Part shown: positions 895 to 34,149 of the stretch, piece by piece
Layout of the letters: every line of letters starts with the position of its first letter
How positions within the stretch are numbered: the first letter of the stretch is position 1
Assembly: GCF_010977555.1 (NCBI RefSeq)
Contig: NZ_CP048815.1
Span: forward strand, 1,666,501-1,730,500
DNA from: Caulobacter rhizosphaerae
GTDB lineage: Bacteria; Pseudomonadota; Alphaproteobacteria; Caulobacterales; Caulobacteraceae
Direction: 5' to 3'
DNA: 64,000 nt
The notes under the pieces: model-generated
What the model was told of the DNA's origin: nothing
What the model saw: only the letters and a program-made list of their open reading frames with translations
Database searches by the model: none
Position numbers and translations under genes: made by a program

Positions 895-908
895 ATCGCG
901 CATGCGAT
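895..908. promoter_or_regulatory. ATCGC-N4-GCGAT palindrome (copy 1)
   Basis: Perfect 5-bp arms ATCGC/GCGAT around GCAT, in the gap between the thioesterase stop and the amidohydrolase start. It is one of three exact copies found in promoter gaps of this window; see also 12525 and 21836. Confidence 0.5.
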
Positions 909-918
909 CCGCGCCGGT

Positions 919-1365
919 TCAGCCGAGAACCAGGTCCGCGACCGAGGCCTTCTGCGTCTCGGTCAGCGGCAGGGGCCGCCGGCCGGCGCGGTCGACATAG
1001 ACGTGAACGAAATAGCCGGCGGCCACCGGCGTCTCGCGGCCCTCGACGAAAAGGCCGATCTCGAACCGGATGCTCTTGTCGCCCAGCTTGCCGATGCGCA
1101 CGCCCGCCTGGACGGTCTGCGGAAACTCCACCGGGGCGAGGAAGTTGCAGTGGCTCTCGACGCACAGGCCGATCGACGGCGAGTCCGGCAGCCAGATGAC
1201 GCCGCGTTCGAACAGCATCCGGGTCACGGCGGTGTCGAACCAGCTGTAGTAGATGATGTTGTTGGCGTGGCCGTAGGGGTCGCCGTCGGCCCAGCGCGTC
1301 GGGATGTCCACCCACCAACCGTAGTGTTCGCGGCGCTCGTCCTGGGGCTTGCGGGCATCGGTCAT
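919..1365 (-). CDS. Acyl-CoA thioesterase, 4HBT/YbgC hotdog family
   Basis: 148 aa, the usual length of a single-hotdog 4-hydroxybenzoyl-CoA thioesterase. Residues 24-41 ([18 protein letters not shown]) match the family signature RxxDxDxxGHxNNxxY; the aspartate of DPYGHANN is the catalytic acid/base in 4HBT enzymes. It should hydrolyse an acyl- or aroyl-CoA in the cytosol. The ATG overlaps the folE stop (ATGA), so it is translationally coupled as the last gene of the operon 4343 to 919. A role in rescuing CoA from dead-end thioesters is inferred from context. Confidence 0.88.
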
Positions 1366-1943
1366 GCGGCGGAACCCTGGCGGACAAGGCGCAGGAATTC
1401 GGCGCGGGTCCGCGGGTCGTCGCGGACCACGCCGCGCAGGCTGCTGGTCGTCAGCCGCGAGCCCGGCGTGTTGACGCCGCGCAGGGTCATGCAGCTGTGC
1501 ACGGCCTCGATCACCACCCCCACGCCCTGCGGCTGCAGGACGTCCTCAATGGCCTGGGCGATTTCGGCGGTCAGCTTCTCCTGGATCTGCAGGCGCCGCG
1601 CGAAGCCGTTGACCACCCGCGCCAGCTTGGAGATGCCGACCACCTTGTTGGTGGGCAGGTAGCCGACATGGGCCACGCCGGTGACCGGCAGCATGTGGTG
1701 TTCGCAAAAGCTGACCACGCGGATGTTGCTGAGAACCACCAGCTGGTCGTAGCCGGCCACTTCCTGAAAGGTCCGCTCCAGGTAGCCGCGCGGGTCGGTC
1801 TCGTAGCCGGAGAACAGCTCGCGATACGACTTGGCCACGCGCTCGGGCGTGTCGAGCAGGCCTTCGCGCGACGGGTCGTCGCCGGCCCACTCCAGCAGTG
1901 TCCGGACAGCGGCTTCGGCGTCGGCCTGGCTCGGTTTGCTCAT
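1362..1943 (-). CDS. folE: GTP cyclohydrolase I
   Basis: 193 aa. Converts GTP to 7,8-dihydroneopterin triphosphate, the first step to folate or tetrahydrobiopterin. All three zinc ligands of the family are visible: Cys80 and His83 in [12 protein letters not shown], and Cys151 in HSCMTLRGV. The substrate-binding stretch [15 protein letters not shown] is also intact. The position is odd: it sits 10 nt after an SCP2-type thiolase and overlaps a thioesterase in a catabolic operon, not with folate genes. It may be a second folE supplying a pterin cofactor to the pathway, or a housekeeping gene that happens to lie here; the window cannot decide. Confidence 0.95.
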
Positions 1944-1953
1944 GGTCGGATGC

Positions 1954-3093
1954 TCACGCCTTCTCGAACAGGTGAACGGCGGACGCGGTTCCTAGACCGA
2001 CCACGTGGGTCAGGCCGATCCTGGCGCCCTGGACCTGCCGCGCGCCGGCCTCGCCGCGCAGGTGCAGGGCGACCTCGTACATGTTGGCGATGCCTGTGGC
2101 GCCCAGGGGATGGCCCTTGGACAGCAGCCCGCCCGAGACATTGACCGGCACGCGGCCGCCCAGCGCGGTGACGCCCTCGTCGATCAGCCGTCCGGCCTCG
2201 CCCAGTCCACACAGCTGCAGATTTTCGTAGTGCAGCAGTTCGGCGGTGGCGAAGCAGTCGTGCAGCTCGACCAGGCTGACATCGCGCGGATCGATCCCGG
2301 CCTGTTCGTAAGCCGATTTCGCCGCCAGCTGGGTGCAGCCGTTGACGTCGGGCATGATCGGATTGCGCGGGTTCCAGGGATCGGAGGCCAGGGCCGAGGC
2401 CAGCACGCGGATCGCCCGCGTCAGGCCCAGCTCCCGGGCCTTCTTCTCGGAAACAACCACGGCCGCGGCCGAGCCGTCGACATTCACCGAGCACATCAGC
2501 TTGGTGTTGGGATAGGCGATCATCTCCGAGCCCATCACCTCTTCCAGCGGCGTCTCCTTCTGGTAGACGGCCTTGGGGTTCATGGTCGAATGGTGGTGGT
2601 TCTTCACCGACACCTTGGCGAACTGCTCGAAGGTGGTGCCGTACTTTCCCGCGTGCTCCATGCCGGACTCGGCGAAGACGGCCGGCATCGAGGCCGAGCC
2701 GAACAGGCCTTCCAGCGAGATGCCGGTCTCGTGGCCCGCGCCCAGCATGCCGCGCGGCATCTTCTCGACGCCGACCGCCAGCACCACGTCGTAGAGGCCC
2801 GACTTCACCGCAATCCACGCCTCGCGAAAGGCCGAGGCGCCGGTGGCGCAGGCGTTGGAGATGTTGGTGACCGGAATGCCCGTCTGGCCGATCTCGCGCA
2901 TGATCGCCTGGCCGGTCATGTCATAGGCGCCGAACACCGAGCCGCAGTACATGGCCTGGACGTCGTGGACGGAGAGGCCGGCGTCGTCGAGGGCCAGCAG
3001 CGCCGCTTCGCCGCCGAGCTGGGCGAAGGTCCGGTCGGGATATTTGCCGAACTTCAGCATGTCGATGCCGAGGATGTAGACGTTCTCGCTCAT
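1954..3093 (-). CDS. SCP2-type thiolase (Cys present)
   Basis: 379 aa. Thiolase fold of the SCPx/lipid-transfer class: [10 protein letters not shown] at 80-89 holds the nucleophile (Cys82), HDCFATAE and [14 protein letters not shown] carry the later active-site histidines. It should cleave a 3-ketoacyl-CoA or perform a related C-C bond reaction, probably with the DUF35 protein encoded just upstream at 3102-3527, 8 nt away. The ATG at 3093 was chosen because it gives the normal N-terminus ([11 protein letters not shown]); the open frame runs far upstream but overlaps the DUF35 and crotonase genes. Of the three SCP2-thiolase-like genes in this window, this is the only one with the active-site cysteine. 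Confidence 0.88.
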
Positions 3094-3101
3094 GGCGGAC
3101 C

Positions 3102-3527: not shown

Positions 3528-3536
3528 GGCTTGGCC

Positions 3537-8292: not shown

Positions 8293-8306
8293 ATCGACCA
8301 GGCGAT
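8293..8306. promoter_or_regulatory. ATCGC-N4-GCGAT-like palindrome, one mismatch (copy 2)
   Basis: ATCGA-CCAG-GCGAT, nine of ten motif positions, about 100 nt ahead of the GntR/UTRA gene. If genuine it suggests that this regulator, or the regulator of the whole set, also controls this gene. Confidence 0.4.
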
Positions 8307-8401: not shown

Positions 8402-9148
8402 ATGCAACTCCAGGCCGGCCCACTTCCGCTCTACCACCAGATGGAACAGGATCTGCGGTCGCGTCTGCATGGCGGCGAATTCGGCCCCGGCGATCCCTTG
8501 CCCACCGAAGAGCGCCTGTGCGAGCAGTACGGGGTCAGCCGCATCACCGTGCGACGCGCGCTGGACGCCCTGATCGCTCAGGGTCTGATCGTCAGGCGTC
8601 GCGGCGTGGGCTCCTTCGTGGCCGAACGCAAGGTCGGCTCGCGGTCCATTTCCCTCAAAGGGTCGCTGGACGAGTTCCTGGCCGGCGCCGGTCTGATGGA
8701 GCCGGACCGGCTGTCGCTCGAACACGAGGTGCGCAACGCCGAGGCGGCGGCGATCCTCAACCTGCCCGACGACGCCGGCATGACGCGCCTGGAACTGATC
8801 AGCCGCATCGACGGCGAGCCGGCGGCCTATCTGGAGATCTACTTTCCCCCCGAGGTCGGCAGGGAGCTCGAGCAGCACGACTTCGTGACGGCGGGCGTGC
8901 CGATCATTCGCGCCGTGGAGCGGCGCCTGAACGTTCGCGTCGCCCGCGCCCAGCAGAGGATCGAATCCGGCGTGGCCGGCAAGGTCGCCGCGGCGCACCT
9001 GGGCCTGCGGCCCGCCGATCCCGTTCTGCTGGTCACCCGCGCCTATCACCTGGCCAGCGGCCAGCCGATCGAGGTCGTGTTCGTGCGCTACCACCCCGCC
9101 CGCTACAGCTACGTCATCGAATTCAACGCCGACGGCCGCGCCGGTTGA
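8402..9148 (+). CDS. GntR family regulator, HutC/UTRA subfamily
   Basis: 248 aa. An N-terminal winged helix (LPLYHQMEQDLRSRLHGGEF, then LCEQYGVSRITVRRALDALIAQGLI) is followed by a UTRA ligand-binding domain (GSRSISLKGSLDEFLAGAG through VIEFNADGRAG). HutC/FarR-type proteins are usually repressors that sense small acids or their CoA esters. The ATG follows a weak ribosome site (GGAAACCCT). It stands between the operon at 4539-8286 and the IclR-type gene and is a prime candidate for control of the island. Confidence 0.9.
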   Translation: MQLQAGPLPLYHQMEQDLRSRLHGGEFGPGDPLPTEERLCEQYGVSRITVRRALDALIAQGLIVRRRGVGSFVAERKVGSRSISLKGSLDEFLAGAGLMEPDRLSLEHEVRNAEAAAILNLPDDAGMTRLELISRIDGEPAAYLEIYFPPEVGRELEQHDFVTAGVPIIRAVERRLNVRVARAQQRIESGVAGKVAAAHLGLRPADPVLLVTRAYHLASGQPIEVVFVRYHPARYSYVIEFNADGRAG

Positions 9149-9183
9149 GCGTTCCGCAGCGTGCAACGAGACGTTCATAAAAA

Positions 9184-9198: not shown

Positions 9199-9231
9199 AA
9201 AATCGAAAAAGACCGTTGCGACTCCCCGGTT

Positions 9232-9254
9232 GTTATGACAACATAACGTCATAA
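9232..9254. promoter_or_regulatory. Overlapping inverted repeats TTATGAC/GTCATAA and GTTATG/CATAAC
   Basis: TTATGAC (9233-9239) and GTCATAA (9248-9254) form perfect 7-bp arms 8 nt apart, and GTTATG (9232-9237) pairs with CATAAC (9242-9247) in the same stretch. The cluster ends about 7 nt before the AGGGAGG ribosome site of the iclR-type gene, where a bound protein would block transcription. Confidence 0.45.
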
Positions 9255-9273: not shown

Positions 9274-10068
9274 GTGGTGAAGTCATTGGATCCGAAGAAG
9301 ATCAAGTCGGCCCAACGCGCGCTCGAAGTGCTGGAGTTCTTTTCCGACGCTCGGCCGACGGCCACCGTCATGGATATCGCCCGCTCCATGGGCTATCCGC
9401 AGTCGAGCACCTCTGAACTGCTCAACTGCCTGGTTTCGCTGGGTTATCTCAATCGGGATCGCGACCAGCGCACCTACAGGCCGACGGCGCGGGTGGCGGT
9501 GATCGGTTCATCGGTCCAGCCCGAGCTGTTCCGCAAGGGACGGCTGCTGGCCATTCTCGACCACCTCGCCGAGGAAGCCGGCGTCACCGTCACCCTGGCC
9601 CACAAGGTCGGCATGTCGGTCCAGCATATCCACGTGGTGCGCGGCGGCGACGCGCCCGCCGACATCGACGCCAGCGCCGGCTTGGCGGCCTCGTCGGCCG
9701 GCAAGGTGCTGTTGGCGACGTTCGACCCGGTTCTGGTGCGAAAGCTGGTCCATCGGATCAACGCCGAGGCGCCGGAGGGAATTGACCGCATCTGCGCCGT
9801 CGAGTTCGGGGAGGCGCTGCGTCAGGTCCGGATCCAGGGCTACGCCCAGCATGTCGACGGCGACCAGGCCAGCCTGTCGATGCTGGTCTCGCAACTGCGC
9901 GACGCTCACGCCCTCGCGCTCAACATCCACGGGGACAGGGCGTTCTTCGAAGCCAACAAAGATTGGCTGCTGCAGATGGTGCGCGGGGCCATCGCCCGCC
10001 TGAACAATCCGGCTCTGGGACGTTCCCTGGAAGCCGAAACCATCCAGCCGGAACGCCGTTCCGCCTGA
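9274..10068 (+). CDS. IclR family transcriptional regulator
   Basis: 264 aa. N-terminal winged helix (KSAQRALEVLEFFSDARPTATVMDIARSM, then PQSSTSELLNCLVSLGYL) and a C-terminal GAF-like effector domain typical of IclR proteins. Start GTG at 9274, 6 nt after AGGGAGG; GTG at 9277 is an alternative. IclR proteins commonly control catabolic operons for aromatic or other acids. Two kinds of palindrome lie upstream, one shared with the promoter of the amidohydrolase at 790. Ends before a strong terminator at 10105. Confidence 0.9.
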   Translation: MVKSLDPKKIKSAQRALEVLEFFSDARPTATVMDIARSMGYPQSSTSELLNCLVSLGYLNRDRDQRTYRPTARVAVIGSSVQPELFRKGRLLAILDHLAEEAGVTVTLAHKVGMSVQHIHVVRGGDAPADIDASAGLAASSAGKVLLATFDPVLVRKLVHRINAEAPEGIDRICAVEFGEALRQVRIQGYAQHVDGDQASLSMLVSQLRDAHALALNIHGDRAFFEANKDWLLQMVRGAIARLNNPALGRSLEAETIQPERRSA

Positions 10069-10141: not shown

Positions 10142-11290
10142 TCAGGTGGCGGCCGCGCCCAGGATGACCGTCGCCTGGCTGGACAGGACGCCGCCGTTGC
10201 CGTGGGCGATGGCGAAGCTTGCGTCCGCGACCTGGCGGTCCCCGGCCTCGCCCCGCAGCTGGCGCACAGCCTCGACGATCGGGAACAGGCCGTACATGCC
10301 CGGGTGGCAGCAGGAGAGGCCGCCGCCGTTGGTGTTGACCGGCAGGGCCCCGCCGGGCGCGATGCGCCCGTCCTCGACGAAGCGGGCGCCCTCGCCCTTG
10401 GGGCAGAAGCCGAGATCCTCCAGGAACAGGATCGTGTTGATGGTGAAGGCGTCGTAGACTTGGACGACGTCGATGTCGGCCGGCGTCAGGCCAGCTCGCT
10501 GATAGGCCCGCGCGCCCGATCTTGCGGCGGCGGTGACCGTCAGGTCGTCCAGCCAGCCGATCTCGCGGTGATGAGACTCGGCGGCGGCGCCCAGGACCTT
10601 GATCGGCGCCCGCTTCAGGTCGCGCGCCCGGTCAGCCCGGGTCATCACCACCGCGGCGGCGCCGTCGGTGACCAGGCAGCAATCGAGCACCGACAACGGG
10701 TCCGAGACCATCCGCGAGGCCAGGTAGTCGTCCATCGTCAGCGGATCGCGCTTGAAGGCCTCCGGATTGAGCATGGCCCATTTGCGCGCCGCCAGCGCCA
10801 CCGCGCCCAGCTGCTCCCGCGTCGCGCCGTACTGGTGCATGTAGCGGGCCGCGGCCAGGGCGTAGGAGCTGACCGGATTGAGCGGCCGATAGGGCGCCTC
10901 ATAGCGCATGGGCTGGACGGTCGAGACCAGCTTTCCGGTCGCCGTCGCCTGGTTCGAACCGTAGGCGATCAGGGCGCAGTCGATGGCGCCGGCGTCCAGC
11001 AGGTAGGCGGCGTGCTCGACATAGGTCTGGAAGGCCGACCCGCCGGTGCGGTTGTTGTCGGTGACCTTGGGCCGGATCCCCAGGTACTGGGCGAAGGAGA
11101 GCCCGCCCATGGTGTCGGTGGGGTGGCAGAAGAACAGCCCGTCGACGTCGGCCAGCGAGAGGCCGGCGTCTTCCAGCGCCATGGCGCTGGCGATCGCGGC
11201 GAGATCGGAGGCTTCGTAGCCGGGGGCCTTGCCCTGGCCGAAGGTGGCGGCGCCGACGATGGCCGTGCGGCCGCGGGGAAAGTCGTTCAT
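10142..11290 (-). CDS. SCP2-thiolase-like protein without active-site Cys (Ltp2-like)
   Basis: 382 aa. Thiolase fold, but the nucleophilic cysteine segment reads DNNRTGGSAFQTY (residues 78-90), with no Cys, and the GHP loop reads SCCHPGMYG. Such cysteine-less SCP2 thiolases act with DUF35 proteins; Ltp2/ChsH2 is a retro-aldolase releasing propionyl-CoA in steroid side-chain degradation. The start ATG overlaps the stop of the DUF35 gene upstream (ATGA), supporting a complex made in fixed ratio. C-C lyase activity is inferred from the family; a simple thiolase reaction is unlikely. Confidence 0.82.
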   Translation of the reverse strand: MNDFPRGRTAIVGAATFGQGKAPGYEASDLAAIASAMALEDAGLSLADVDGLFFCHPTDTMGGLSFAQYLGIRPKVTDNNRTGGSAFQTYVEHAAYLLDAGAIDCALIAYGSNQATATGKLVSTVQPMRYEAPYRPLNPVSSYALAAARYMHQYGATREQLGAVALAARKWAMLNPEAFKRDPLTMDDYLASRMVSDPLSVLDCCLVTDGAAAVVMTRADRARDLKRAPIKVLGAAAESHHREIGWLDDLTVTAAARSGARAYQRAGLTPADIDVVQVYDAFTINTILFLEDLGFCPKGEGARFVEDGRIAPGGALPVNTNGGGLSCCHPGMYGLFPIVEAVRQLRGEAGDRQVADASFAIAHGNGGVLSSQATVILGAAAT

Positions 11291-11664
11291 GCCGCCGGCT
11301 CCACCGCGTCGAAGACCACGACCGGCTCGCCGTGCTGGTCGACGATGCGGGCCTGGACGGCCATGCCGATGGCCACGGCGGCGGGCTCGACGCCCTCGAC
11401 CCGGCTCATCATCCGCGGCCCTTCGGCCAGGTCGATCAGGGCGACGTTGTAGCTGGGCTCGGGCGGCTTCTTGCGCACCACGGTGGTCGAATAGACCACG
11501 CCGCGCCCCGAAGCCTCGACCCATTCCAGGTCCCGAGCGCCGGTCCCGGGGGCCACGGCGCGCGGGTAGAAGACATGGACCCTGCTGCTCTTCGAGCGCT
11601 GGATCATGAACCGGCCCGCCACGAGGAAGGCGCGGAACTCGGCGTCGGGGTGAGTGACGTCCAT
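11287..11664 (-). CDS. DUF35 OB-fold protein with degenerate Zn ribbon
   Basis: 125 aa. It aligns with the acyl-CoA-associated DUF35 proteins at 3102 and 27051 (FYPRAVAPGTGARDLEWVEA, GRGVVYSTTVV), but the four zinc-ligand cysteines are gone: the ribbon reads RSKSSRVHVFYPR and the whole protein contains no cysteine. The OB-fold half looks intact. Overlaps the cysteine-less thiolase-like gene by 4 nt, 3 nt after the crotonase. Either the ribbon folds without metal or it serves only as a docking surface. Confidence 0.82.
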   Translation of the reverse strand: MDVTHPDAEFRAFLVAGRFMIQRSKSSRVHVFYPRAVAPGTGARDLEWVEASGRGVVYSTTVVRKKPPEPSYNVALIDLAEGPRMMSRVEGVEPAAVAIGMAVQARIVDQHGEPVVVFDAVEPAA

Positions 11665-11667
11665 CGG

Positions 11668-12438
11668 TCAGTTGCCGACGAACTGGGCTTTGCGCTTTTC
11701 CTTGAAGGAGTTGGTCCCCTCGCGGAAGTCCTCGGTCTGCACCATCAGCGGCTGGATGTTGGCCTCGAAGTCCAGGGCCTGGTCGTAGGTCTGGGCCGGG
11801 GCGGCGTCGAACTGGCGCTTGGCCATGGCCAGGGCGATCGTCGGGGCGTTGACGAAGCCGGCGGCGACCTCCCGGGCCTTGGCCAGGGCCTCGCCCGGCG
11901 GCGTGGCGTGCAGGGCCAGGCCCAGCTGATGGGCCTCGGCGCCGCTGACGAAGCGGCCGGAATACATGATCTCCTTGGCCCGCTGGATCGGCACGTAGCG
12001 GGTCAGCAGGAAGGCCGCGCCGCCGTCCGGCGCCAGGCCGATGTGGCGGAAGGCGAACTGGAACCGCGCGTTCTCGGCCGCGACGGTGATGTCGGCCGCC
12101 AGGGCCAGGGCCCAGGACATGCCGATGCACACGCCCTCGACGGCGGCGATCACCGGCTTGTTGGTGTTGGCCACCGCCCGCGCCATCCGGTGCAGGTGGC
12201 GCATGCGATACAGCGAGCCGCTGATCCCCCCGCCGCCCATCTCGCCGACATCGGCCCCGGCGCTGAAGTCCGAGCCCGCGCCGGTCAGGATGATGACGCG
12301 CACGGCGTCGTCGTCCTGGCACTTCAGGAACGCGTTCTCGATCTCGGTGCGCATGGCCAGGAGAATGGCGTTCTTGCGCTCGGGACGATTGATGGTCACG
12401 GTCGCGACGCCGTTTTCGATGCTCAGATCGATCGCCAT
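11668..12438 (-). CDS. Enoyl-CoA hydratase/isomerase family protein
   Basis: 256 aa crotonase with oxyanion hole FSAGADVGEM and the segment RFQFAFRHIGLAPDGG, which resembles the PaaG/1,2-epoxyphenylacetyl-CoA isomerase branch (AFxxIGLxPDxG). The first catalytic glutamate position is Ala (SWALALAAD) and the second is Phe, so an isomerase or related role is more likely than hydration. The start at 12438 gives MAIDLSIENGVATVTINRP. First gene of a three-gene minus-strand operon with the degenerate DUF35 and Cys-less thiolase, divergent from the dehydrogenase run at 12589. Confidence 0.85.
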   Translation of the reverse strand: MAIDLSIENGVATVTINRPERKNAILLAMRTEIENAFLKCQDDDAVRVIILTGAGSDFSAGADVGEMGGGGISGSLYRMRHLHRMARAVANTNKPVIAAVEGVCIGMSWALALAADITVAAENARFQFAFRHIGLAPDGGAAFLLTRYVPIQRAKEIMYSGRFVSGAEAHQLGLALHATPPGEALAKAREVAAGFVNAPTIALAMAKRQFDAAPAQTYDQALDFEANIQPLMVQTEDFREGTNSFKEKRKAQFVGN

Positions 12439-12523: not shown

Positions 12524-12539
12524 TATCGCGGCTGCGATA
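12524..12539. promoter_or_regulatory. TATCGC-N4-GCGATA palindrome (copy 3, exact)
   Basis: Perfect 6-bp arms around GGCT in the 150-bp divergent gap between the crotonase (12438) and acyl-CoA dehydrogenase (12589). It contains the exact ATCGC-N4-GCGAT core at 12525-12538, well placed to control both operons. Confidence 0.55.
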
Positions 12540-12588: not shown

Positions 12589-13734
12589 GTGCAAACCTTC
12601 GACGCTCATCCCTTTGACCCGCCAGCCGGCGTTGAGACGCTTCGCCGTGAGGTGCGCGATTTCATCGCTCGTGAAGCGCCGAAATCCGACGCCGCCGGCC
12701 GCGCCAACTGCTGGGCCGTCTGCGACGCCGACTTCAGCAAGGCCATGGGCCGGGCCGGCTATGTCGGCATGACCTGGCCGGTCGAATACGGCGGCCACGC
12801 CCGTCATCCGTTGCACCGCTACGTGGTGCTGGAGGAACTGCTGGCCGCCGGCGCGCCGGTCGGCATGCACTGGATCGCCGACCGCCAGAGCGGGCCGCTG
12901 CTGCTGCGCTACGGGACCGAGGAACAGCGGCGCGTCCACCTGCCGGGCATCGCAGCCGGCGAGACCTATGTCTGCATCGGCATGAGCGAGCCGGGCGCGG
13001 GATCGGACCTGGCGTCGATCCGCACCCAGGGCGTTCGCGACGGCGACGGCTGGCGCATCAGCGGCCAGAAGGTCTGGACCACCAACGCCCACAACGCCCA
13101 GCTGATGATCGCCCTGGTCCGCACGGTCGAGGGTTCGCAGCGCAACGAGGGCCTGACCCAGTTCCTGATTCCGCTGGACACGCCCGGCGTAACGGTCCGC
13201 CCGATCATCGACCTGGTCGGCGGGCACGACTTCAACGAGGTCTTCCTCGACAATGTCCACGTGCCGGACACCGCCCGGGTCGGCCCCGAGGGAAACGGCT
13301 GGAAACAGGTGACGGCCGAGCTGTCGCTGGAGCGGTCGGGCCCTGAACGCTACCTGTCCAGCTACGCCGCCCTGGTCGAGCTGATCCGGTTCGCCGGTCC
13401 GGAGCCCGAGCCCGTGCTGGCCGCGCTGATCGGCCGCCTGACCGCCGAGCTGTGGACCCTGCGGCAGATGTCGCAATCCACCGCCGCCAAGCTGGCGGCC
13501 GGCGAGGATCCCGCCCTGGAGGCGGCGATCGTCAAGGACCTGGGCAACAGTTTCGAGCAGGAGCTGCCGCGCGCCATCCAGGCCGCGCTGGACGGCGCCG
13601 AGGACCTGTCGGCGGCCACGGACCTGATGCGGGTCCTGGCCCTGCTGCTGCAGGTCTCGCCGTCGTTTTCGCTACGGGGCGGCACGCGCGAGATCCTGCG
13701 CGGCATCATCGCCAGGGGGCTGGGTCTGAGATGA
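12589..13734 (+). CDS. Acyl-CoA dehydrogenase, alpha-type subunit (pair 1)
   Basis: 381 aa flavoprotein. N-terminal helical domain (VRDFIAREAPKSDA, MTWPVEYGG), middle sheet domain with IGMSEPGAGSDLASIRTQG and ISGQKVWTTNAH, and C-terminal FAD/substrate domain. At the C-terminus it has RGGTREILRGIIARGLGL, so the glutamate of the MCAD YEGT motif is Gly. GTG is the only reasonable start and has no clear ribosome site, so a short or leaderless mRNA is possible. The stop overlaps the next dehydrogenase, suggesting an alpha2beta2 heteromer like the steroid-degrading FadE pairs. Confidence 0.88.
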   Translation: MQTFDAHPFDPPAGVETLRREVRDFIAREAPKSDAAGRANCWAVCDADFSKAMGRAGYVGMTWPVEYGGHARHPLHRYVVLEELLAAGAPVGMHWIADRQSGPLLLRYGTEEQRRVHLPGIAAGETYVCIGMSEPGAGSDLASIRTQGVRDGDGWRISGQKVWTTNAHNAQLMIALVRTVEGSQRNEGLTQFLIPLDTPGVTVRPIIDLVGGHDFNEVFLDNVHVPDTARVGPEGNGWKQVTAELSLERSGPERYLSSYAALVELIRFAGPEPEPVLAALIGRLTAELWTLRQMSQSTAAKLAAGEDPALEAAIVKDLGNSFEQELPRAIQAALDGAEDLSAATDLMRVLALLLQVSPSFSLRGGTREILRGIIARGLGLR

Positions 13735-14729
13735 GCGAGTCACGGACCCTGCTGAGCGACACGGCCGATCGCCTGTTCGCCGACGTCGCGGCCAATCCGG
13801 ACGCCGCCTTCGCCGAGACCTGGCCCGCGATCGCGGAGGCGGGTTTCGAAAGCCTGCTGCTGAGCGAGGAGCGGGGCGGCTTCGGCGGCGATTGGGGCGA
13901 TCTGTTCGCCGTCGCCCGGCTGGCGGGAGCGCACGCCCTGGCCGCGCCGGTGGGCGAAGCGGCGGTGGCGGCCTGGGCGCTGGCCCAAGCCGGCCTGACG
14001 CCGTCCGAAGGCCTGGCCACGATCGCGCCGGTGGTCGACGGGCGTCTCGCGGACGGTCGCTTCACCGGCAGCCTCAGAGGGACGCCCTGGGGCGGCGCGG
14101 CCGAGACGGTCGTCGCCACCCATGCCGGGTCGTTGCTGAGGCTGCGGACGGCCGACGCCCATGTCCAGGCCGGCCACAGCCCGGTGGGCGAGCCGCGCGA
14201 CGGGTTGATCTTCGAGGCCGCGGCGGTCGAGGCCGCGCCTTGCGACATCGACCTCTTCGCCTGCGGCGCCTTCCTGCGGACGGCGCAGATCGCCGGCGCG
14301 CTGGACGCGGCGCTGGAAGCCTCGATCGTCTACGCTAACGAGCGGGTGCAGTTCGGCAAGCCGATCAGCAAGTTCCAGACGGTCCAGCAGAGCCTGGCGG
14401 TCTTCGCGATCGAGGCGGCGGCGGTGAATTCCGCCGGCCAGGCCGCCGCGCGGGCGGCCGACGCGGGCGACGCCGGTTTCGAGTTCGCGGCGGCCAAGCT
14501 GCGCGCCAACGCCGCCGCGGGGCAGGGCGCGGCCCTGGCCCACCAGGTGCACGGCGCCATCGGCTTCACTCACGAGTATCCGCTGCACCGCCTGACCCGC
14601 CGCCTGGCCGGCTGGCGGTCCGAATTCGGCGGCGACCGGTTCTGGGCGCAGCGCCTGGGCTGTCGCGTGGCGGGCCTGGGGCCTGAAGGCCTGTGGCCCG
14701 AACTGGCCCGGCGGTCCGACGCCGCATGA
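13731..14729 (+). CDS. Acyl-CoA dehydrogenase, short beta-type subunit (pair 1)
   Basis: 332 aa, shorter than a normal dehydrogenase because the N-terminal and middle domains are abridged. The C-terminal domain is clear: [21 protein letters not shown] and [24 protein letters not shown] overlaps the preceding stop by 4 nt. In actinobacterial and proteobacterial heteromeric dehydrogenases the two adjacent subunits make a mixed active site with only two FADs; this arrangement is inferred here from gene order and subunit sizes. Confidence 0.85.
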
Positions 14730-14752
14730 CTGGATTTGCAAGGGGAGGGCGC

Positions 14753-16749: not shown

Positions 16750-16758
16750 GAGGCCGCG

Positions 16759-17874: not shown

Positions 17875-17880
17875 GGAAGC

Positions 17881-19122: not shown

Positions 19123-19132
19123 GGGACCGCCG

Positions 19133-19954: not shown

Positions 19955-20003
19955 CGCGCCGACAACGGCCGCGCCAAGCACCTGATCTGAGCGAGGAAAT
20001 CCC

Positions 20004-20936: not shown

Positions 20937-21814
20937 TGGCCAAGGCCCAACTGCCCGACCTGACCCTGCACGACCTCCTGGACCTGGAGGACATCGGCTC
21001 GGACTATTTCCGTTCGCGGCGGACCGAACCAAACTTCAGCGGGGCGCTCTACGGCGGGCAGGTCCTGGCCCAGGCGCTGCGGTCCAGCCAGCTGACGGTG
21101 CAGGGGCGACCGGTGCATTCCCTGCACGGCTATTTCATCCGTCCCGGGGCCGAGGCCGAGCCGGTGGTCTACCAGGTCGAGCGCACGCGCGACGGCCGCA
21201 ACTTCACGACCCGGCGGGTGATCGCCCGGCAGAAGGGCGTGCCGATCTTCCACATGGAGGCGTCGTTTCACGACGGCGCCGAGGGCGTCGCCCATGCTCG
21301 CCCGGCCCCCGCGGTTCCGGGCCCCGGCGAGGTCTCGGCCGAGGATCCGTTCGAGCGGGCGCTGGCGGCGTCGCGCGCCCCCGATGATCCGCCGCCGCGG
21401 ACCCTGTTGCCCCTGGTGGAACGGCGCATGGCGCCCGCCGAACAGGGCGCGCGGGAGGCCGAACGCCAGCTGTGGATGCGTGCACGCGGCCAACCCCTGG
21501 CCGACGCCGAGCTGCGCGCCTGCGGCCTGGCCTATCTGTCAGACTTCTGGCTCGGCGGCGTCGCCAAGGCCCCGCATCCCGAGGCGGTACGGCAGCGGAT
21601 CGCCAGCCTCGACCACGCCCTGTGGTTTCACGCGCCGGCCCACCCGACCGACTGGCTGCTCTACGAGATGTCCAGCGCCTGGGCGGGATCGGCGCGCGGC
21701 CTGGCCCAGGGCCGTATCTATGACGAGGCCGGCGGGCTGGTCGCCTCGGTGGCCCAGGAAATCTATCTCTTCCCGGGCGAGATGCACGCCGCGCCGCGCG
21801 TCGGCGAGCTTTGA
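20936..21814 (+). CDS. Acyl-CoA thioesterase II (TesB-type)
   Basis: 292 aa double-hotdog protein. The N-terminal half has ALYGGQVLAQALRSS and VHSLHGYFIRPGAEAEP; the C-terminal half has AYLSDFWLGG (catalytic Asp) and ASVAQEIYLF (Gln), as in E. coli TesB. Hydrolyses acyl-CoA of medium or long chain or branched acids. Translationally coupled to the SDR. Last gene before an 86-nt gap that holds an exact ATCGC-N4-GCGAT palindrome. tesB is a possible symbol, but paralogues are common. Confidence 0.9.
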   Translation: MAKAQLPDLTLHDLLDLEDIGSDYFRSRRTEPNFSGALYGGQVLAQALRSSQLTVQGRPVHSLHGYFIRPGAEAEPVVYQVERTRDGRNFTTRRVIARQKGVPIFHMEASFHDGAEGVAHARPAPAVPGPGEVSAEDPFERALAASRAPDDPPPRTLLPLVERRMAPAEQGAREAERQLWMRARGQPLADAELRACGLAYLSDFWLGGVAKAPHPEAVRQRIASLDHALWFHAPAHPTDWLLYEMSSAWAGSARGLAQGRIYDEAGGLVASVAQEIYLFPGEMHAAPRVGEL

Positions 21815-21835: not shown

Positions 21836-21849
21836 ATCGCCCATGCGAT
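21836..21849. promoter_or_regulatory. ATCGC-N4-GCGAT palindrome (copy 4, exact)
   Basis: ATCGC-CCAT-GCGAT in the 86-nt gap between tesB-like and the next dehydrogenase gene, implying an internal promoter for the third dehydrogenase pair and the acyl-CoA ligase. Confidence 0.5.
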
Positions 21850-21900: not shown

Positions 21901-23109
21901 ATGAACTTCGATCTCGATCCGGCCGACGCGGCGTTCCAGGCGGAGATGCGCGCCTTCATCCGCCAGGCGCTGCCGGCGGACATCGCGCGCCGCGGCCGCC
22001 AGGGCTTCCACGCGACCCATGACGACGTCCAGGCCTGGATGCGGATCCTGAACGCGCGCGGCCTGGCCGCCGTGCATTGGCCCCGGCAGCATGGCGGCAC
22101 GGACTGGTCGCCGCTGCGGCGGCACCTGTTCCAGGTCGAGCTGCGGGCGGCCGGCACCCCGGTGCCGGACCAGGCCGCGCTCGAGCTGGTCGGGCCGGTG
22201 ATCTACACCTTCGGCGACGAGGTCCAGAAGGCCCGCTACCTGCCGGCCATCCTCAACGCCGACACCTTCTGGTGCCAGGGCTTCTCCGAGCCGAACTCGG
22301 GCTCGGACCTGGCGTCGCTGAAGACCCGCGCCGTGCGCGACGGCGACCACTATGTCGTCAACGGCCAGAAGACCTGGACGTCCGAGGCCCACAAGGCCGA
22401 CATGATGTTCGCCCTGGTCCGCACCGACGGCGAGGCCAGGCCGCAGGCCGGAATCTCGTTCCTGCTGATCGACATGAAGAGCCCCGGCGTCTCGGTGCGG
22501 CCGATCTACACGATTAACGAGGGCCTGAGCGTCAACGAGGTGTTCCTCGACAATGTGCGGGTCCCGGCCGAGAACCTGGTCGGAGAGGAGAACCGCGGCT
22601 GGGGCTACGCCAAGTTCCTGCTGACCAACGAGCGCACCATGAGCGCCGAAACCCCGCACACGGCCTTCGACCTGGAGCAGGTCAAGCAGATCGCCGCCGT
22701 CGAAAGACGGGGCGGGCGGCCGCTGATCGAGGATCCGCTGTTCGCCGCCCGGCTGGCGCGTTTTGAGATCGAGCTTCGAGCCCTCGAAGCGGCCGTCCTG
22801 CGCGTGCTGCACATGGGTGAGAACGACCCGGCGCTGAACGCCACCGCCTCGGTGCTGAAGTTGCGCGGCTCAGAACTGCGCCAGAGGATCGCCGACCTGG
22901 CCGTCGAGGCCCTGGGCGACCATGGGCTGGCGGTGTTCCCGGACGTCGAGGGGCAGGACAACATGGACGTCCTGGCGCCGGTCCCGCCGGCCCCAGACTA
23001 CGCCGCCGGCTGGTTGTCGCGCGCCATGTTCCGCCGCGCGACCACGATCTATGGCGGCGCCAACGAGATTCAGCGCACCATCATCGCCAAGTCGGTGCTG
23101 GGTCTGTGA
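21901..23109 (+). CDS. Acyl-CoA dehydrogenase, alpha-type subunit (pair 3)
   Basis: 402 aa. HWPRQHGGTDWSPL in the N-terminal domain, CQGFSEPNSGSDLASLKTRA and VNGQKTWTSEAHKAD in the middle domain, TIYGGANEIQRTIIAKSVLG at the end. The residue matching MCAD's catalytic Glu is Gly (YGGANEI), as in the other two long subunits here. A GTAAGGTCGGGTC stretch precedes the ATG, a weak ribosome site. It sits 12 nt before its short partner. Probably FAD-binding half of a heteromeric dehydrogenase for a bulky acyl-CoA. Confidence 0.88.
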   Translation: MNFDLDPADAAFQAEMRAFIRQALPADIARRGRQGFHATHDDVQAWMRILNARGLAAVHWPRQHGGTDWSPLRRHLFQVELRAAGTPVPDQAALELVGPVIYTFGDEVQKARYLPAILNADTFWCQGFSEPNSGSDLASLKTRAVRDGDHYVVNGQKTWTSEAHKADMMFALVRTDGEARPQAGISFLLIDMKSPGVSVRPIYTINEGLSVNEVFLDNVRVPAENLVGEENRGWGYAKFLLTNERTMSAETPHTAFDLEQVKQIAAVERRGGRPLIEDPLFAARLARFEIELRALEAAVLRVLHMGENDPALNATASVLKLRGSELRQRIADLAVEALGDHGLAVFPDVEGQDNMDVLAPVPPAPDYAAGWLSRAMFRRATTIYGGANEIQRTIIAKSVLGL

Positions 23110-23121
23110 GGGCATAGGACG

Positions 23122-24252
23122 ATGGATTTCTCCCCGACCCAGGAACAGGCGGCCCTGAAGGAAAGCGCGCGGCGGCTGTGCGAGCGCGACTACGGCTTCG
23201 AGCAGCGCCGCCATCGGATACGCGGCGCCGAGGGCTTCTCGCGCGACCTGTGGAAGACCTTCGCCGACCTGGGCTGGCTGGGCGCCGGCCTGTCGGAGGA
23301 CGATTTCGGCTATGGCGGCGGACCGGTCGAAACGGCCCTGCTGCAGGAGGAGTTCGGCCGCGTGCTGCTGGTCGAGCCCTACCTGTCGTGCGCGATCATC
23401 GCCGCCCGCGCCGTCGTCGCCCTGGGCGACCCGGCCCAGAAAGAGGCTTTGCTGGCGCCGCTGGTGGCCGGCGAGAAGCTGATCGCCCTGGCCCATAACG
23501 AGGCGGCCATGCGCGGCGACGACGCGGCTGTCAGGACCGAGGCCAGACTGACGGCGGACGGCTGGCGGCTGGAGGGGCGCAAGGCCTTCGTGCTGGGCGG
23601 TTCCAGCGCTGACATCCTGCTGGTCTCGGCCAGGACCCCCGGCGGCGTCAGCCTGTTCGAGGTCCCGGCCGACGCGGCGGGGCTGGAGGTCGTCGCCTAT
23701 CACGCGGTCGACGGGCGGCGGGTCGCCGACCTCATGCTGACGGACGTGGCCGTGGACGACGCGGCGCGGATCGGGCCGGAGGGCGGGGCGCTGCCGGGGA
23801 TCGAGCTGGCCGTCGACCATGGGGTCATCGCCCTGATGGCCGAATGCGTCGGCGCCATGGACGCGGCCCTGTGGCTGACCCGCGACTATCTTACGACCCG
23901 CAAGCAGTTCGGCGTGACCCTTAACACCTTCCAGGCCCTGCAGCACCGGATGGCCGACATGCTGGTCGAGACCGAGCTGGCGCGGTCGATGCTGCTGCGC
24001 GGGATCGCGGCCCTGTCGGACCCCGATCCGCGGGCGCGGCGGGCCGGGGTGTCCGCCGCCAAGGTCCAGATCGCCGAGGCGGCCGTCAAGGTCACGGGCG
24101 AGGCCATCCAGATGCACGGCGGCATCGGCGTGACGGAGGAATATGTGGTCGGCCACTTCTACAAGCGCGCCGTCCTGGCCCGGGGCCTGTTCGGATCGAT
24201 CGACCTGCACCTGGAACGCTTCGCCGCCTGGTCGCGAAAGGCGGTCGCATGA
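23122..24252 (+). CDS. Acyl-CoA dehydrogenase, beta-type subunit (pair 3)
   Basis: 376 aa. MDFSPTQEQAALKESARRL is the usual N-terminal helix of this subclass; LGWLGAGLSEDDFGYGG follows. The middle domain is divergent, and the C-terminal domain has TTRKQFGVTLNTFQALQHRMAD and MHGGIGVTEEYVVGHFYKR. The stop overlaps the next ATG by 4 nt. Together with 21901 it forms the third adjacent dehydrogenase pair of the island. Confidence 0.87.
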   Translation: MDFSPTQEQAALKESARRLCERDYGFEQRRHRIRGAEGFSRDLWKTFADLGWLGAGLSEDDFGYGGGPVETALLQEEFGRVLLVEPYLSCAIIAARAVVALGDPAQKEALLAPLVAGEKLIALAHNEAAMRGDDAAVRTEARLTADGWRLEGRKAFVLGGSSADILLVSARTPGGVSLFEVPADAAGLEVVAYHAVDGRRVADLMLTDVAVDDAARIGPEGGALPGIELAVDHGVIALMAECVGAMDAALWLTRDYLTTRKQFGVTLNTFQALQHRMADMLVETELARSMLLRGIAALSDPDPRARRAGVSAAKVQIAEAAVKVTGEAIQMHGGIGVTEEYVVGHFYKRAVLARGLFGSIDLHLERFAAWSRKAVA

Positions 24253-25784
24253 GGACCCTGGGCGACCTGATCACCCGCGCGGCGCGCTTCTCGCCCGACG
24301 ACGTCGCCCTGGTCCAGGGCGACCGGCGCTTCACCCACGCCCAGCACCTGGAACGGGCCCGGCGACTGGCCTCGGCGCTGCATCGCGCCGGCTGCGCGCG
24401 CCAGGATCGCGTCGCCGTCCTGGCGATGAACTGCACCGAATATGCCGAGGCCTTCAGCGCGGCCTGGCTGTCGGGCTATATCCTCAGCACTGTCAACTTC
24501 CGCCTGGCGCCGCCGGAGATCGCCTGGGTGCTGGGCGACACCGCGCCGCGCGCCCTGATGTTCGAGGCCCAGTACGCCGAGGTGGTCGCGGGCCTGAAGG
24601 CCGCCCTGCCGTCGATCGAGATTTTCGTCTGTATCGGCGAGGCGCCCGCCTGGGCCGTCGCCTACGAGGACTTTCTCCAGACGGGGGATCCCGAGGGCGC
24701 ACCGCTGGAGGCCCGGGCCGACGACATCGCCCATATCATCTACACCTCCGGCACGACGGGCCGGCCCAAAGGCGTGATGCGCTCGCACCGCGCCGAGCTG
24801 GCGATGGGCGAATGCGTCTGCCTGGCCATGGACGTGCGTCCGCGCGGCCGGATGCTGGAGGTGATGCCGATGTTCCACGCCGGCGCCCAATCCAGCATGC
24901 TGGCCCAGATGTGGCGGGGCGGTGAGATCCACATCCACCGGGCCTTCGATCCCGAGGCGGTGCTGAAGGCCATCGCGACCGAGAAGATCACCCACCTGCA
25001 CCTGGTGCCGCTGATGGTGCAGGCGCTGGTCGATCATCCCGGCTTCGAGAGCCATGACGTGTCCAGCGTGGAGACCATCCTCTACGCCGCCGCCCCGATG
25101 CCGGTGCCGGTGTTGCGACGGGCGCTGGCCCGTTTTGGCCCGGTGTTCGTCAACGCCTGGGGCCAGACCGAGGGCACGGGCACGGCCCTGCCCAAGCACC
25201 TGCACGCCGTCGACGGACCCATGGTCGAGCTGCTGGGCTCGATCGGCAACGCCTATCCGCTGACCCAGGTGCGGATCGTCGGCGACGACGGCCGCGACTG
25301 CGCGGTGGGCGAGGTCGGCGAGCTGTGGATCCGCGGCGAAGCGGTGATGAGCGGCTACTGGAACAATACGACCGCGACGCTGGAAGCTTTCCATGACGAT
25401 TGGTTGAAGACCGGCGACATGGGCCGGTTCGACGCCTGCGAGCGGGTGTTCCTGGTCGATCGCAAGAAGGACATGATCATCTCGGGCGGCGAGAACATCT
25501 ATTCCCAGGAGGTGGAGCGGGCGATCGCCGAGCATCCGGCCGTGGCCCAGGTGGCGGTGATCGGCGCGCCCGACGAGAAGTGGGGCGAGGCGGTGGTGGC
25601 TGCCGTCATCCTGCATCCCGGCGCCCAGGCCAGCGCCGCCGACTTGATCACCCACACCGCCAGCCTGATCGCCAGCTACAAGAAGCCCAAGCAGGTGCTG
25701 TTCCTGGACGCCTTCCCGACCCTGCCCAGCGGCAAGGTCAACAAGGTGGCGCTGCGGGCGATCCACGCCTCATCGCATGCTTGA
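24249..25784 (+). CDS. Acyl-CoA synthetase (AMP-forming ligase)
   Basis: 511 aa ANL-family enzyme with every key motif: P-loop YTSGTTGRPKG at about 165-175, NAWGQTEGTGT (A5), GDMGRFD and the hinge region VDRKKDMIISGGENIYSQEVE (A7-A8), and the adenylation lysine Lys496 in LPSGKVNKVAL. It would activate a carboxylic acid with ATP and CoA, giving the substrate for dehydrogenase pair 3, with which it is translationally coupled. The acid is unknown; medium-chain, branched or polycyclic acids are possible. Confidence 0.92.
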   Translation: MRTLGDLITRAARFSPDDVALVQGDRRFTHAQHLERARRLASALHRAGCARQDRVAVLAMNCTEYAEAFSAAWLSGYILSTVNFRLAPPEIAWVLGDTAPRALMFEAQYAEVVAGLKAALPSIEIFVCIGEAPAWAVAYEDFLQTGDPEGAPLEARADDIAHIIYTSGTTGRPKGVMRSHRAELAMGECVCLAMDVRPRGRMLEVMPMFHAGAQSSMLAQMWRGGEIHIHRAFDPEAVLKAIATEKITHLHLVPLMVQALVDHPGFESHDVSSVETILYAAAPMPVPVLRRALARFGPVFVNAWGQTEGTGTALPKHLHAVDGPMVELLGSIGNAYPLTQVRIVGDDGRDCAVGEVGELWIRGEAVMSGYWNNTTATLEAFHDDWLKTGDMGRFDACERVFLVDRKKDMIISGGENIYSQEVERAIAEHPAVAQVAVIGAPDEKWGEAVVAAVILHPGAQASAADLITHTASLIASYKKPKQVLFLDAFPTLPSGKVNKVALRAIHASSHA

Positions 25785-27047: not shown

Positions 27048-27050
27048 GCC

Positions 27051-31991: not shown

Positions 31992-32040
31992 TCCTCATCC
32001 TGAGGCCCGCCGCTACGCGACGGGCGCCTCAGGATGAGGA
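31992..32040. repeat. REP-like palindrome (CCTCATCCTGAGG type)
   Basis: Perfect 15-bp arms TCCTCATCCTGAGGC / GCCTCAGGATGAGGA around a 19-nt centre. The form is that of the short repetitive palindromes widely scattered in Caulobacterales and related genomes. It lies in the convergent gap after the terminator. Confidence 0.8.
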
Positions 32041-32080: not shown

Positions 32081-32908
32081 TCAGACCGTCCGCGCCTCGA
32101 ACCCCTCCAGATAGGCGGCCAGGGCGGGCGGTACAGGCTTCTTTCCGGGATTGTAGAAGGGCGAGAGCACCATCAGCAGTTTGGGGATCATCAGCCGGGC
32201 GTAGGTCTTCTTGAAGTGGGCTTCACGAGCTTTGGAGGCCTCTACCTCTTCCGGTGTCATCGTCGCCCGATCCACCGACAGCAGGTAGTCGGCGGCTCGC
32301 CGCGAATAGCCGCCCAGATGCCTGAGGGCGAAAAAGAAGCCGTACAGACGGTAGAAATAGCCGGCCACCGGGTTCTTCCTGGCGAACAGGGTCTGGTAGA
32401 CGTCGAAGGCGACGCTGCGGTGCTCGAACTCCTCGGCCAAGTGCCAGCGCCACAGCTCCGAACCGGGATTGGGCTCGCTGGCCTCGAATTCCGCCAGCTT
32501 GCCGTGGAACACCACCTGGGCCATGCCCGAGCCCAGGGCCTCGAAGCCCTCGGCGTAGGCGCAGTTGAACTTCAGGGACTTGTTGGCCAGGAAGTCCTCG
32601 TAGGTCGCCTCCAGCTCGGCCTCGAACGCCTTGATGCCGTCATAGCCGGCGGCGTGCAGCTGCCTGTTGAAGGCGTCGTGCTGCTTGCAGTGCTGGGCCT
32701 CCTGCTTGATGAACACCACCAGGTCGCGATCCAGCGGCGTGTCCTTCTGGTCCAGGGCTTGGCGGGCCTGGAGCATGATCTTGACCAGGAACGGCTCGAC
32801 ATAGGACGGGATGGTCGAGGCGGCGTTCCGCGCCTGGACGTACTCGATATAGGGCGACCAGTGGGGCGGGGTCTGGGCGTAGTCCCAACGCGGATAGCGA
32901 ACCTTCAT
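32081..32908 (-). CDS. PF10118 'metal-dependent hydrolase' (ferritin-like diiron) protein
   Basis: 275 aa. Two ExxH motifs with accompanying glutamates, KQEAQHCKQHDAF (about 68-80) and HLAEEFEHRSVAFDVY (about 156-171), give the pattern of a four-helix di-metal site, and aromatic helices (FYRLYGFFFALRHLGG) suggest membrane or lipid contact. The family is annotated as predicted metal-dependent hydrolase, but the motif looks oxygenase-like; no reaction is established. Next to the epoxide hydrolase, 25 nt downstream of it on the same strand, so an oxidise-then-hydrolyse pair is possible. Confidence 0.8.
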   Translation of the reverse strand: MKVRYPRWDYAQTPPHWSPYIEYVQARNAASTIPSYVEPFLVKIMLQARQALDQKDTPLDRDLVVFIKQEAQHCKQHDAFNRQLHAAGYDGIKAFEAELEATYEDFLANKSLKFNCAYAEGFEALGSGMAQVVFHGKLAEFEASEPNPGSELWRWHLAEEFEHRSVAFDVYQTLFARKNPVAGYFYRLYGFFFALRHLGGYSRRAADYLLSVDRATMTPEEVEASKAREAHFKKTYARLMIPKLLMVLSPFYNPGKKPVPPALAAYLEGFEARTV

Positions 32909-32933
32909 GGCGTGGCTCCTGCCGGTTTCCGGC

Positions 32934-34073
32934 TCATAGGCTCAGGAAGAATTGTCGAACGTCGTCGGCGAAGGCCGCGGGCTCCTCGAAGGCCGCGAAG
33001 TGGCCGCCGGCCGGCATCTGGGTCAGCCGGACCAGGTTCCAGTTGCGGGCCATCGCTCCGCGCGGCGCGGCGGGTAGGAACTCGCCCGGATAGAGGCCGA
33101 CGCCGGTCGGGACCGTCACCTTCAGGCCGGACAACCGCCCGGCGGCGGCCTCGGCGGCGGTTCCGGCGTACATCCAGATGGAGGACGAGACCGCGTCATT
33201 GACCAGATAGGTCATCAGGTTGGTGATCAGCTGTTCCTTGCTAAAGCGGCTCTCGATGTCGCCGCCGGTGTCGGCCCAGCCGTGGAACTTCTCGATCACC
33301 CAGGCGGCGAACGCCACCGGGCTGGCCGAGAGGGCCGCGCCGATGGTCTGGGGCTTGGTCATGTGTTCGAACATGTAGGCGGACTCCCGCCGCTGAACCG
33401 TCTCATAGGCCGCCCGCCATTCGACCTCGCCCTCGACAGCCTCGCTGGCGGGGACAGGCTGCGGGATGCACAGGTTCAGGTGCAGGCCGGCCACGTGCTT
33501 CGGGGCGTCATGGGCAAGCCAGCTGGAAACCGCGCTGCCGAAGTCGCCGCCCTGCAGGAGGAAGCGGTCGTAGCCCAGGTGGTCGACCATCAGGCTGCGC
33601 CACATCTCCGACACCCGGCGTGGCCCGATCGGGCTGTTCGGTCGCGAGGAGAAGCCGAAGCCGGGCAGGGAGGGGATCACGAGGTCGAAGCCGTCTTCGG
33701 CCCGCCCGCCGAACCGCTCGGGAAAGGCCAGTCGTTCCGCGGCCTGGTCGAATTCCAGAATCGAGCCGGGCCAGCCGTGGGTCATCAGGATCGGGCCGCG
33801 TCCGCCCGAGCCCCTGATGTGCTGGAAGCGCACGTCGACGTCGTCGATGCGGACGCTGAACTGCGGAAACCGATTGAGGTGCGTCTCCCAGCGCCGCCAG
33901 TCATAGGTGTCGAGCCAGTAGTCGATGAGCTCGCGCAGATAGGCGGCGTCGACGCCGTAGGCCCAGCCCGAGCCCGGCGGCGCATAGGTGATGTCGGCCG
34001 CGCGCAACCCGGCGCGAATGTGCTGCAGGCGGGCCTCGGGCACGGCGATTTCGAAGGGCGTCGGGGCATCCAT
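32934..34073 (-). CDS. Epoxide hydrolase (EHN/alpha-beta hydrolase)
   Basis: 379 aa. The EHN N-terminal domain (PFEIAVPEARLQHIRAGL...YLRELIDYWLDTYDWR) precedes an alpha/beta-hydrolase core: HGWPGS oxyanion motif (99-104), nucleophile Asp177 in QGGDFGS, and His358 in AGGHFAAFEEP. This is the layout of microsomal-type and juvenile-hormone-type epoxide hydrolases, which open epoxides to diols. Divergent from the sulfotransferase gene across a 167-bp gap with two palindromes. Confidence 0.92.
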   Translation of the reverse strand: MDAPTPFEIAVPEARLQHIRAGLRAADITYAPPGSGWAYGVDAAYLRELIDYWLDTYDWRRWETHLNRFPQFSVRIDDVDVRFQHIRGSGGRGPILMTHGWPGSILEFDQAAERLAFPERFGGRAEDGFDLVIPSLPGFGFSSRPNSPIGPRRVSEMWRSLMVDHLGYDRFLLQGGDFGSAVSSWLAHDAPKHVAGLHLNLCIPQPVPASEAVEGEVEWRAAYETVQRRESAYMFEHMTKPQTIGAALSASPVAFAAWVIEKFHGWADTGGDIESRFSKEQLITNLMTYLVNDAVSSSIWMYAGTAAEAAAGRLSGLKVTVPTGVGLYPGEFLPAAPRGAMARNWNLVRLTQMPAGGHFAAFEEPAAFADDVRQFFLSL

Positions 34074-34102
34074 GGTCGCAGCATGACTCCCGGCGCATCA
34101 TC

Positions 34103-34117
34103 CCGGAAACGTTCCGG
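34103..34117. promoter_or_regulatory. Palindrome CCGGAA-N3-TTCCGG
   Basis: Perfect 6-bp arms around ACG, 30 nt upstream of the epoxide hydrolase start and flanked by direct repeats GGCGCATC. A candidate operator in the divergent promoter; the regulator is unknown. Confidence 0.4.
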
Positions 34118-34135
34118 CGCATCCGGGGCGGGCTT

Positions 34136-34149
34136 ATCGCGGAGACGAT
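34136..34149. promoter_or_regulatory. ATCGC-N4-GCGAT-like palindrome, one mismatch (copy 5)
   Basis: ATCGC-GGAG-ACGAT, nine of ten motif bases, in the epoxide hydrolase / sulfotransferase divergent gap. It could connect region 2 to the catabolic island regulon. Confidence 0.4.

Follow-up and report, generated by a model that had tools for sequence, protein, structure and literature searches.

An island for CoA-dependent catabolism and its recurrent palindrome

We analysed a 64,000-nucleotide stretch of the Caulobacter rhizosphaerae genome (5.96 Mb, 2 contigs), C1:1666501-1730500, here called the window; positions are window-relative, with negative numbers to the left of the window. It covers part of an island of about 80 kb for CoA-dependent catabolism. 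The island encodes many acyl-CoA dehydrogenases, several of them adjacent, together with enoyl-CoA hydratases, thiolases, CoA ligases, a CoA transferase, SDRs, a P450, a GMC oxidoreductase, an aldehyde dehydrogenase, an epoxide hydrolase, amidohydrolases, a TonB-dependent receptor and sulfotransferases. In front of many of its operons recurs the palindrome ATCGC-N4-GCGAT. Because of its placement, its conservation, its reuse at orthologous promoters and its top rank among palindromes, we hold it as nearly certain that this palindrome is the operator of a real, island-wide regulon. By our own count, with operons inferred from gene direction, about 50 genes lie behind a supported site, and most of the regulon lies to the left of the window.

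The regulators encoded in or beside the island are a MarR protein (g028), two IclR proteins (g057 and g069, called IclR1 and IclR2), a GntR/UTRA protein of the HutC type (g068, called GntR below), a GntR/FCD protein (g090), an AraC protein (g096) and a MerR protein (g102). The original prediction also looked to nearby TetR proteins, but no TetR gene was seen among the island proteins annotated by Pfam, a scan outside which at least one protein (g039) fell.

We compared the island in six genomes: C. rhizosphaerae (G000) and a second Caulobacter (BK020), which are close relatives; a metagenome-assembled genome (MAG, G075) and its relative G498 (IclR1 63% identical in the MAG); and G783 and G702, which are of another genus of the same family. 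G702 is 91% complete and yielded only 24 reciprocal best hits to the island. Genes were called with a home-made caller that sometimes places starts too early.

The palindrome is concentrated in promoters of the island

Exact copies in the window begin at 895, 12525 and 21836 and one-mismatch copies in gaps at 8293, 34136 and 43114, exactly where the original prediction had put them. It had also expected well under one exact copy by chance, and dinucleotide shuffles bear this out, with 0.27 copies expected and three or more reached in 1 of 100 shuffles. With up to one mismatch allowed, 16 copies were observed against 6.0 expected, a count attained by none of 100 shuffles; six of these are intergenic and the other 10 lie inside called genes. 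The excess is moderate from the window alone, and the whole genome makes it strong.

Computation on the genomes shows the motif itself, where it lies, how well it is kept and that it goes with the island. Genome-wide there are 44 exact sites, eight of which fall within 56 kb (C1:1632128-1688336), a segment that takes in 34 kb to the left of the window and its first 22 kb. Seven of these eight are intergenic, compared with 2 of the 36 elsewhere (Fisher p 7e-6), so that the proposed count of intergenic against coding hits sets the island apart from the rest of the genome. The same pattern is seen with one mismatch allowed: a 75-kb core holds 14 sites in 3,943 intergenic bases versus 13 in 71,058 coding bases, and the other 69 kb that we fetched hold 4 in 11,171 intergenic and 10 in 57,828 coding bases. 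The palindrome is thus enriched in promoters over coding sequence, as in a local regulon. Two exact sites off the island are non-coding. One (ATCGCTATCGCGAT, C1:1870790-1870803, L015:1501-1514) lies far from the island, where open frames of at least 120 aa leave a gap of about 800 bases; the other (C1:2833860) is situated between two open frames and touches the final base of a stop codon. For neither was a tie to the regulon established.

We also ranked all 9,216 palindromes with 5-nt half-sites and spacers of 0-8 across the six islands. ATCGC-N4-GCGAT came first, with 28 exact intergenic and 6 coding copies, 22 of the 28 being left without BK020. The runners-up had 9 intergenic copies each and were a shifted form of the same motif and CGCCG-N1 (47 coding copies). 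Four of the six copies counted as coding (MAG 54530, G783 2190172, G498 2964078 and G498 2968821) were judged from orthologue starts to be promoter sites, and are treated as such in our analysis of site-to-start distances; the remaining two are at G000 -25493 and G498 2901298. A different palindrome, CCTCA-N3-TGAGG, has 8 intergenic copies in G000, arranged as four pairs (31993-32005 and 32027-32039 in the window; -11406 and -11315, -5677 and -5646, -57313 and -57284); between the genes of the other five sequences there is none. It looks like a repetitive extragenic palindromic (REP)-type repeat.

The palindrome is conserved at orthologous promoters

A single BK020 contig spans the island from -30.7 to +29 kb. 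In the 11 intergenic sites aligned, 110/110 motif positions and 42/44 spacer positions are identical, compared with 505/642 in the 30-nt flanks (p 4e-11 against the motif) and 2,181/2,558 in all aligned intergenic DNA. For a random intergenic window, all ten positions were kept in 596 of 1,815 cases. Eleven coding copies in the same alignment keep 104/110 positions, and the single exact coding copy of the cluster (-25493) has lost one base in BK020.

The island is largely collinear in G783, and its gene order differs in the MAG, G498 and G702. The original prediction turned to orthologous promoters of related strains, and the sites are indeed reused there. Counting copies with at most one mismatch before the same orthologues, a site recurs at g072/g073 in all six genomes; at g037, GntR and g044 in five each (g044 in BK020 by alignment); at g047 in four; at g058, g040 and g082 in three each; and at g091 and g092 in two each. 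The g072/g073 operator TATCGCGGCTGCGATA is the same in all six, spacer included, amid diverged DNA. There are some single-genome losses, such as that before g058 in G783, where we found two-mismatch copies only.

Could these sites have arisen by chance? In a GC-rich genome, ATCGC and GCGAT are frequent strings of codons, and 34 of the 36 exact sites off the island do lie in coding-scoring frames (3 of the 34 weak, with scores of 36 to 52). As a control, we took loci from other genomes of the class that hold a 57-67% relative of the thiolase g070 (45 genomes with a homologue, 29 non-own loci, some only partly covered); 12 of the 29 hold a one-mismatch copy, but none holds an exact one. Chance is a likely account of most copies elsewhere. 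For the conserved island sites it is refuted by the intergenic density in the core, the conservation in BK020, the identity of an operator across six genomes and the top rank of the palindrome, and as an account of the motif as a whole it is barely credible.

Individual sites and their targets

The sites and target operons of the window are collected in Table 1. The original prediction held that all six sites lie in gaps ahead of genes. All six are intergenic, but the site at 895 serves the amidohydrolase gene, while the gene at 919-1365 merely ends beside it. That prediction would also have united the amidohydrolase, the GntR gene, the dehydrogenase operons and the epoxide hydrolase/sulfotransferase pair under one factor; placement, conservation and orthologous promoters support this for all of them, and only the site at 43114 falls away. 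Since no counterpart was found in the related islands examined, the latter is probably a chance copy.

Table 1. Palindromes, regulator genes and target operons in and next to the window
Feature	Position	Strand	Context
IclR1 (g057)	C1:1665227-1666012		directly left of the window
Exact operator ATCGCGCATGCGAT	895..908	.	104 nt 5' of amidohydrolase (start codon 790, minus)
Operator ATCGACCAGGCGAT, one mismatch	8293..8306	.	upstream of the GntR-IclR2 pair (GntR start 8402)
GntR/UTRA (HutC-type) regulator g068	8402..9148	+	Pfam GntR + UTRA
Second palindrome GTTGT-N4-ACAAC	9229..9242	.	between GntR and IclR2 genes, 31 nt 5' of IclR2
IclR-type regulator g069 (IclR2)	9274..10068	+	Pfam HTH_IclR
Target operon g072-g071-g070	10142..12438	-	enoyl-CoA hydratase, OB-fold protein, thiolase
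Exact operator ATCGCGGCTGCGAT	12525..12538	.	divergent promoter of g072 (enoyl-CoA hydratase, minus) and g073 (acyl-CoA dehydrogenase, start 12589, plus)
Target operon g073-g081	12589..21814	+	acyl-CoA dehydrogenases, thiolase, hydratases, SDR, thioesterase
Exact operator ATCGCCCATGCGAT	21836..21849	.	51 nt 5' of acyl-CoA dehydrogenase g082; identical in BK020 and G783
Target operon g082-g084	21901..25784	+	two acyl-CoA dehydrogenases, AMP-binding CoA ligase
Target operon g093-g092	32081..34073	-	epoxide hydrolase, predicted metal-dependent hydrolase
Operator ATCGCGGAGACGAT, one mismatch	34136..34149	.	divergent promoter of epoxide hydrolase g093 and sulfotransferase g094
Target operon g094-g095	34271..36695	+	sulfotransferase (open frame from 34148), major facilitator superfamily (MFS) transporter
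One-mismatch copy	43114..43127	.	before universal-stress-protein gene; left out of the regulon

The site at 895 is identical in BK020, has one mismatch before the G498 orthologue and is represented in G783 by two-mismatch copies only. At 8293 all ten positions are kept in BK020, and the site before the GntR orthologue is exact in the MAG and G498 and has one mismatch in G783. The site at 34136 lies outside the coverage of the BK020 contig; orthologues of g092 and g094 stand behind a site that has one mismatch in the MAG and is exact in G498.

Site centres often lie 57-111 nt 5' of the called start, commonly 75-95, within a range of 18 to 210 that depends on starts from our own caller. In divergent promoters the centre can be near midway, as at g056/g057 (76 and 75 nt) and g047/g048 (82 and 79 nt). 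When 18 targets were scanned for promoters with loose cut-offs, an E. coli-type pair was seen in 4 and a Caulobacter-type pair in 5. A search within 60 nt of each G000 site for a second, tandem one gave just scattered weak copies; the MAG has one exact tandem pair, 22 nt apart.

Candidate readers of the palindrome

Our initial candidate was IclR1. An exact site lies between its gene and the divergent g056 operon in both Caulobacters, with one mismatch in G783, and exact sites stand upstream of a probable transporter-IclR1 operon in the MAG and G498. However, a search at E 1e-8 found no IclR1 in G702, which nonetheless has the island, GntR, IclR2 and exact sites at g037 and g072/g073, and the recognition helix of IclR1 varies between lineages while the operator does not. 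We therefore dropped IclR1, now an improbable reader, which leaves the GntR-IclR2 pair. A plasmid search with IclR1 returned 43 records, all below 60% identity. Hardly more probable is a regulator encoded off the island, because the exact sites between genes cluster in the island and accompany it in other lineages, as is usual for a local regulator.

Judging by sequence comparison, the reader is probably encoded by the GntR-IclR2 pair (8402-10068), and both genes are present in all six genomes. Which of the two it would be is a closer question, and the proposition that it is IclR2 itself is evenly balanced. IclR2 matches HTH_IclR but not IclR_C, and many of its listed homologues carry PF01614. 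Across 102 to 114 sequences (query included) its recognition-helix block PQSSTSELL hardly varies, and its effector domain has diverged: columns conserved above 95% make up 58% of the helix-turn-helix (HTH) domain and 5% of the effector part. The corresponding values are 44% and 13% for GntR, and 44% and 39% for IclR1, where the sequences are closer.

We also compared the motif with published operators. IclR group 1 has the consensus GKTYCRYW3-4RYGRAMC, with a subgroup iv of 4-nt centre, NGTYCRAW4TYGRACN (PMC8222616). Our motif resembles this group in its inverted repeat, its catabolic targets and its divergent promoters, and its core TCGC-N4-GCGA fits the inner part YCRY-N3-4-RYGR. The tandem pair of the MAG agrees with the spacing of 18-22 nt reported for many IclR proteins. 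HutC-type regulators have the consensus NyGTMTAKACNy, with GT and AC 4 nt apart, and their sites are mostly GT-N4-AC (PMC4494728). The second palindrome, GTTGT-N4-ACAAC, has this geometry; it is exact in four of the six genomes (both Caulobacters, the MAG and G498), and TTGTTATGACA is kept in all six. Because it fits the HutC geometry, we attribute it to GntR, and ATCGC-N4-GCGAT to IclR2. Its presence favours IclR2 as the reader of the main motif, if not decisively. The second palindrome may coincide in part with the -10 element of the IclR2 promoter, and some of its conservation could then be that of the promoter.

Alternatively, the GntR/UTRA protein, which the original prediction had put forward, could read the main palindrome and autoregulate its own operon, with IclR2 acting elsewhere, for example at the palindrome before its own start. 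The motif is found in the GntR promoter in five of the six genomes, and it shares with HutC-type operators two half-sites 4 nt apart and a HutC-type regulator within the regulon. A one-mismatch copy about 190 nt 5' of the one distant (37%) GntR homologue found in the class (L070:1313) speaks slightly for GntR; class-wide searches with all three regulators recovered 30-39% relatives whose loci hold no exact copy, only scattered one-mismatch copies. However, the motif presents GC-N4-GC and not GT-N4-AC, a proper GT-N4-AC palindrome adjoins the GntR gene, and G702 has no site with up to two mismatches ahead of its GntR gene. We regard GntR as a possible but rather doubtful reader; the adjoining IclR2 fits somewhat better.

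Several points nevertheless weigh against the assignment to IclR2 or against parts of the wider account. The GntR HTH domain, with the helix YGVSRITVRRAL, is strongly conserved too (121 sequences, query included); the motif stands in the immediate promoter of GntR and not of IclR2; and GC-N4-GC has the 4-nt spacing of HutC sites. Because GntR and IclR2 always co-occur in the six genomes, comparison does not separate them. In deep protein searches the two are often listed on contigs of equal length, presumably the same contig. The lack of IclR1 in G702 could be an assembly gap. Set against IclR group 1, the motif has A beside the core where the group has T, and it is without the outer GKT/AMC bases, its flanks holding about 0.2 bit or less. 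Subgroup iv (CRA-W4-TYG) has A and T beside the centre where the motif has C and G, and the spacer of the motif shows no A/T preference, unlike W4. In G000 alone, moreover, the motif leads the next palindrome, a repeat element, merely by 7 to 6. Finally, activation is only weakly hinted at, by site position and weak promoter matches.

With these points in mind, the best explanation seems to us, with belief and doubt in about equal parts, to be that ATCGC-N4-GCGAT is the operator of a regulon of about 50 genes read by the GntR-IclR pair, most likely by IclR2. For the identity of the reader, its ligand and activation over repression, we infer the following scheme. An IclR2 dimer would sit on one palindrome per promoter, as a rule some 75-95 nt ahead of the start codon, and would often serve two divergent operons. 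A pathway compound, for example a CoA thioester, might bind in the effector domain of IclR2, upon which the operons would be switched on or released.

Comparison with other catabolic regulons

The KstR and KstR2 cholesterol regulons of actinobacteria also exert island-wide control over acyl-CoA dehydrogenases and thiolase/ChsH2-type pairs, and are read by TetR proteins. They have other operators as well as TetR readers, and the scan of proteins from the Caulobacter island revealed no steroid-ring genes. The EdcR regulon of Caenibius tardaugens is similar in that a palindrome recurs at several promoters of a catabolic cluster, and differs in its operator TnnCnnTACnAnTnGTAnnGnnA and its TetR reader (PMC8700777). 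In one open-access library no paper contained the motif in any of six spellings and none of the papers listed described the regulon, which is not proof that they are unpublished.

The pathway encoded by the island

Three thiolase/OB-fold (ChsH2-type) pairs lie in the window, at 1954-3527, 10142-11664 and 25908-27461, and suggest that a branched substrate undergoes several aldol-type side-chain cleavages. To the left, an operon at -34273 to -25360 (C1:1632227-1641140) encodes an inositol-phosphatase-family protein, CysD, an adenosine phosphosulfate (APS)-kinase/GTPase fusion, a P450, a sulfotransferase and a DUF1254/DUF1214 protein. With these genes in one operon, phosphoadenosine phosphosulfate (PAPS) is probably made for sulfation within the pathway, and sulfation is perhaps a catabolic step. 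A GTP cyclohydrolase I gene (1362-1943, minus strand) also lies within the island and is kept in G783. The GntR/FCD gene (29904-30704, minus strand) has a divergent promoter with a one-mismatch site in the MAG and G498; in G000 no copy with up to two mismatches was found there.

A more elaborate scheme, which we consider speculative and on balance unlikely, is that a circuit of two operators, one of them of a new type, goes with the island. The HutC-type GntR would act on the IclR gene through GTTGT-N4-ACAAC, the IclR activator would act through the new type, ATCGC-N4-GCGAT, on about 50 genes including that of GntR, and PAPS-dependent sulfation would be a step of catabolism.

Altogether, the analysis provides an operator that can be tested, a handful of candidate regulators and a list of targets for a large breakdown pathway found in several bacterial lineages. 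A reporter could serve to look for the inducing compound, and hence for the substrate. Should one of the predicted readers prove correct, ATCGC-N4-GCGAT would add a type of operator to the repertoire of the IclR or the HutC proteins.

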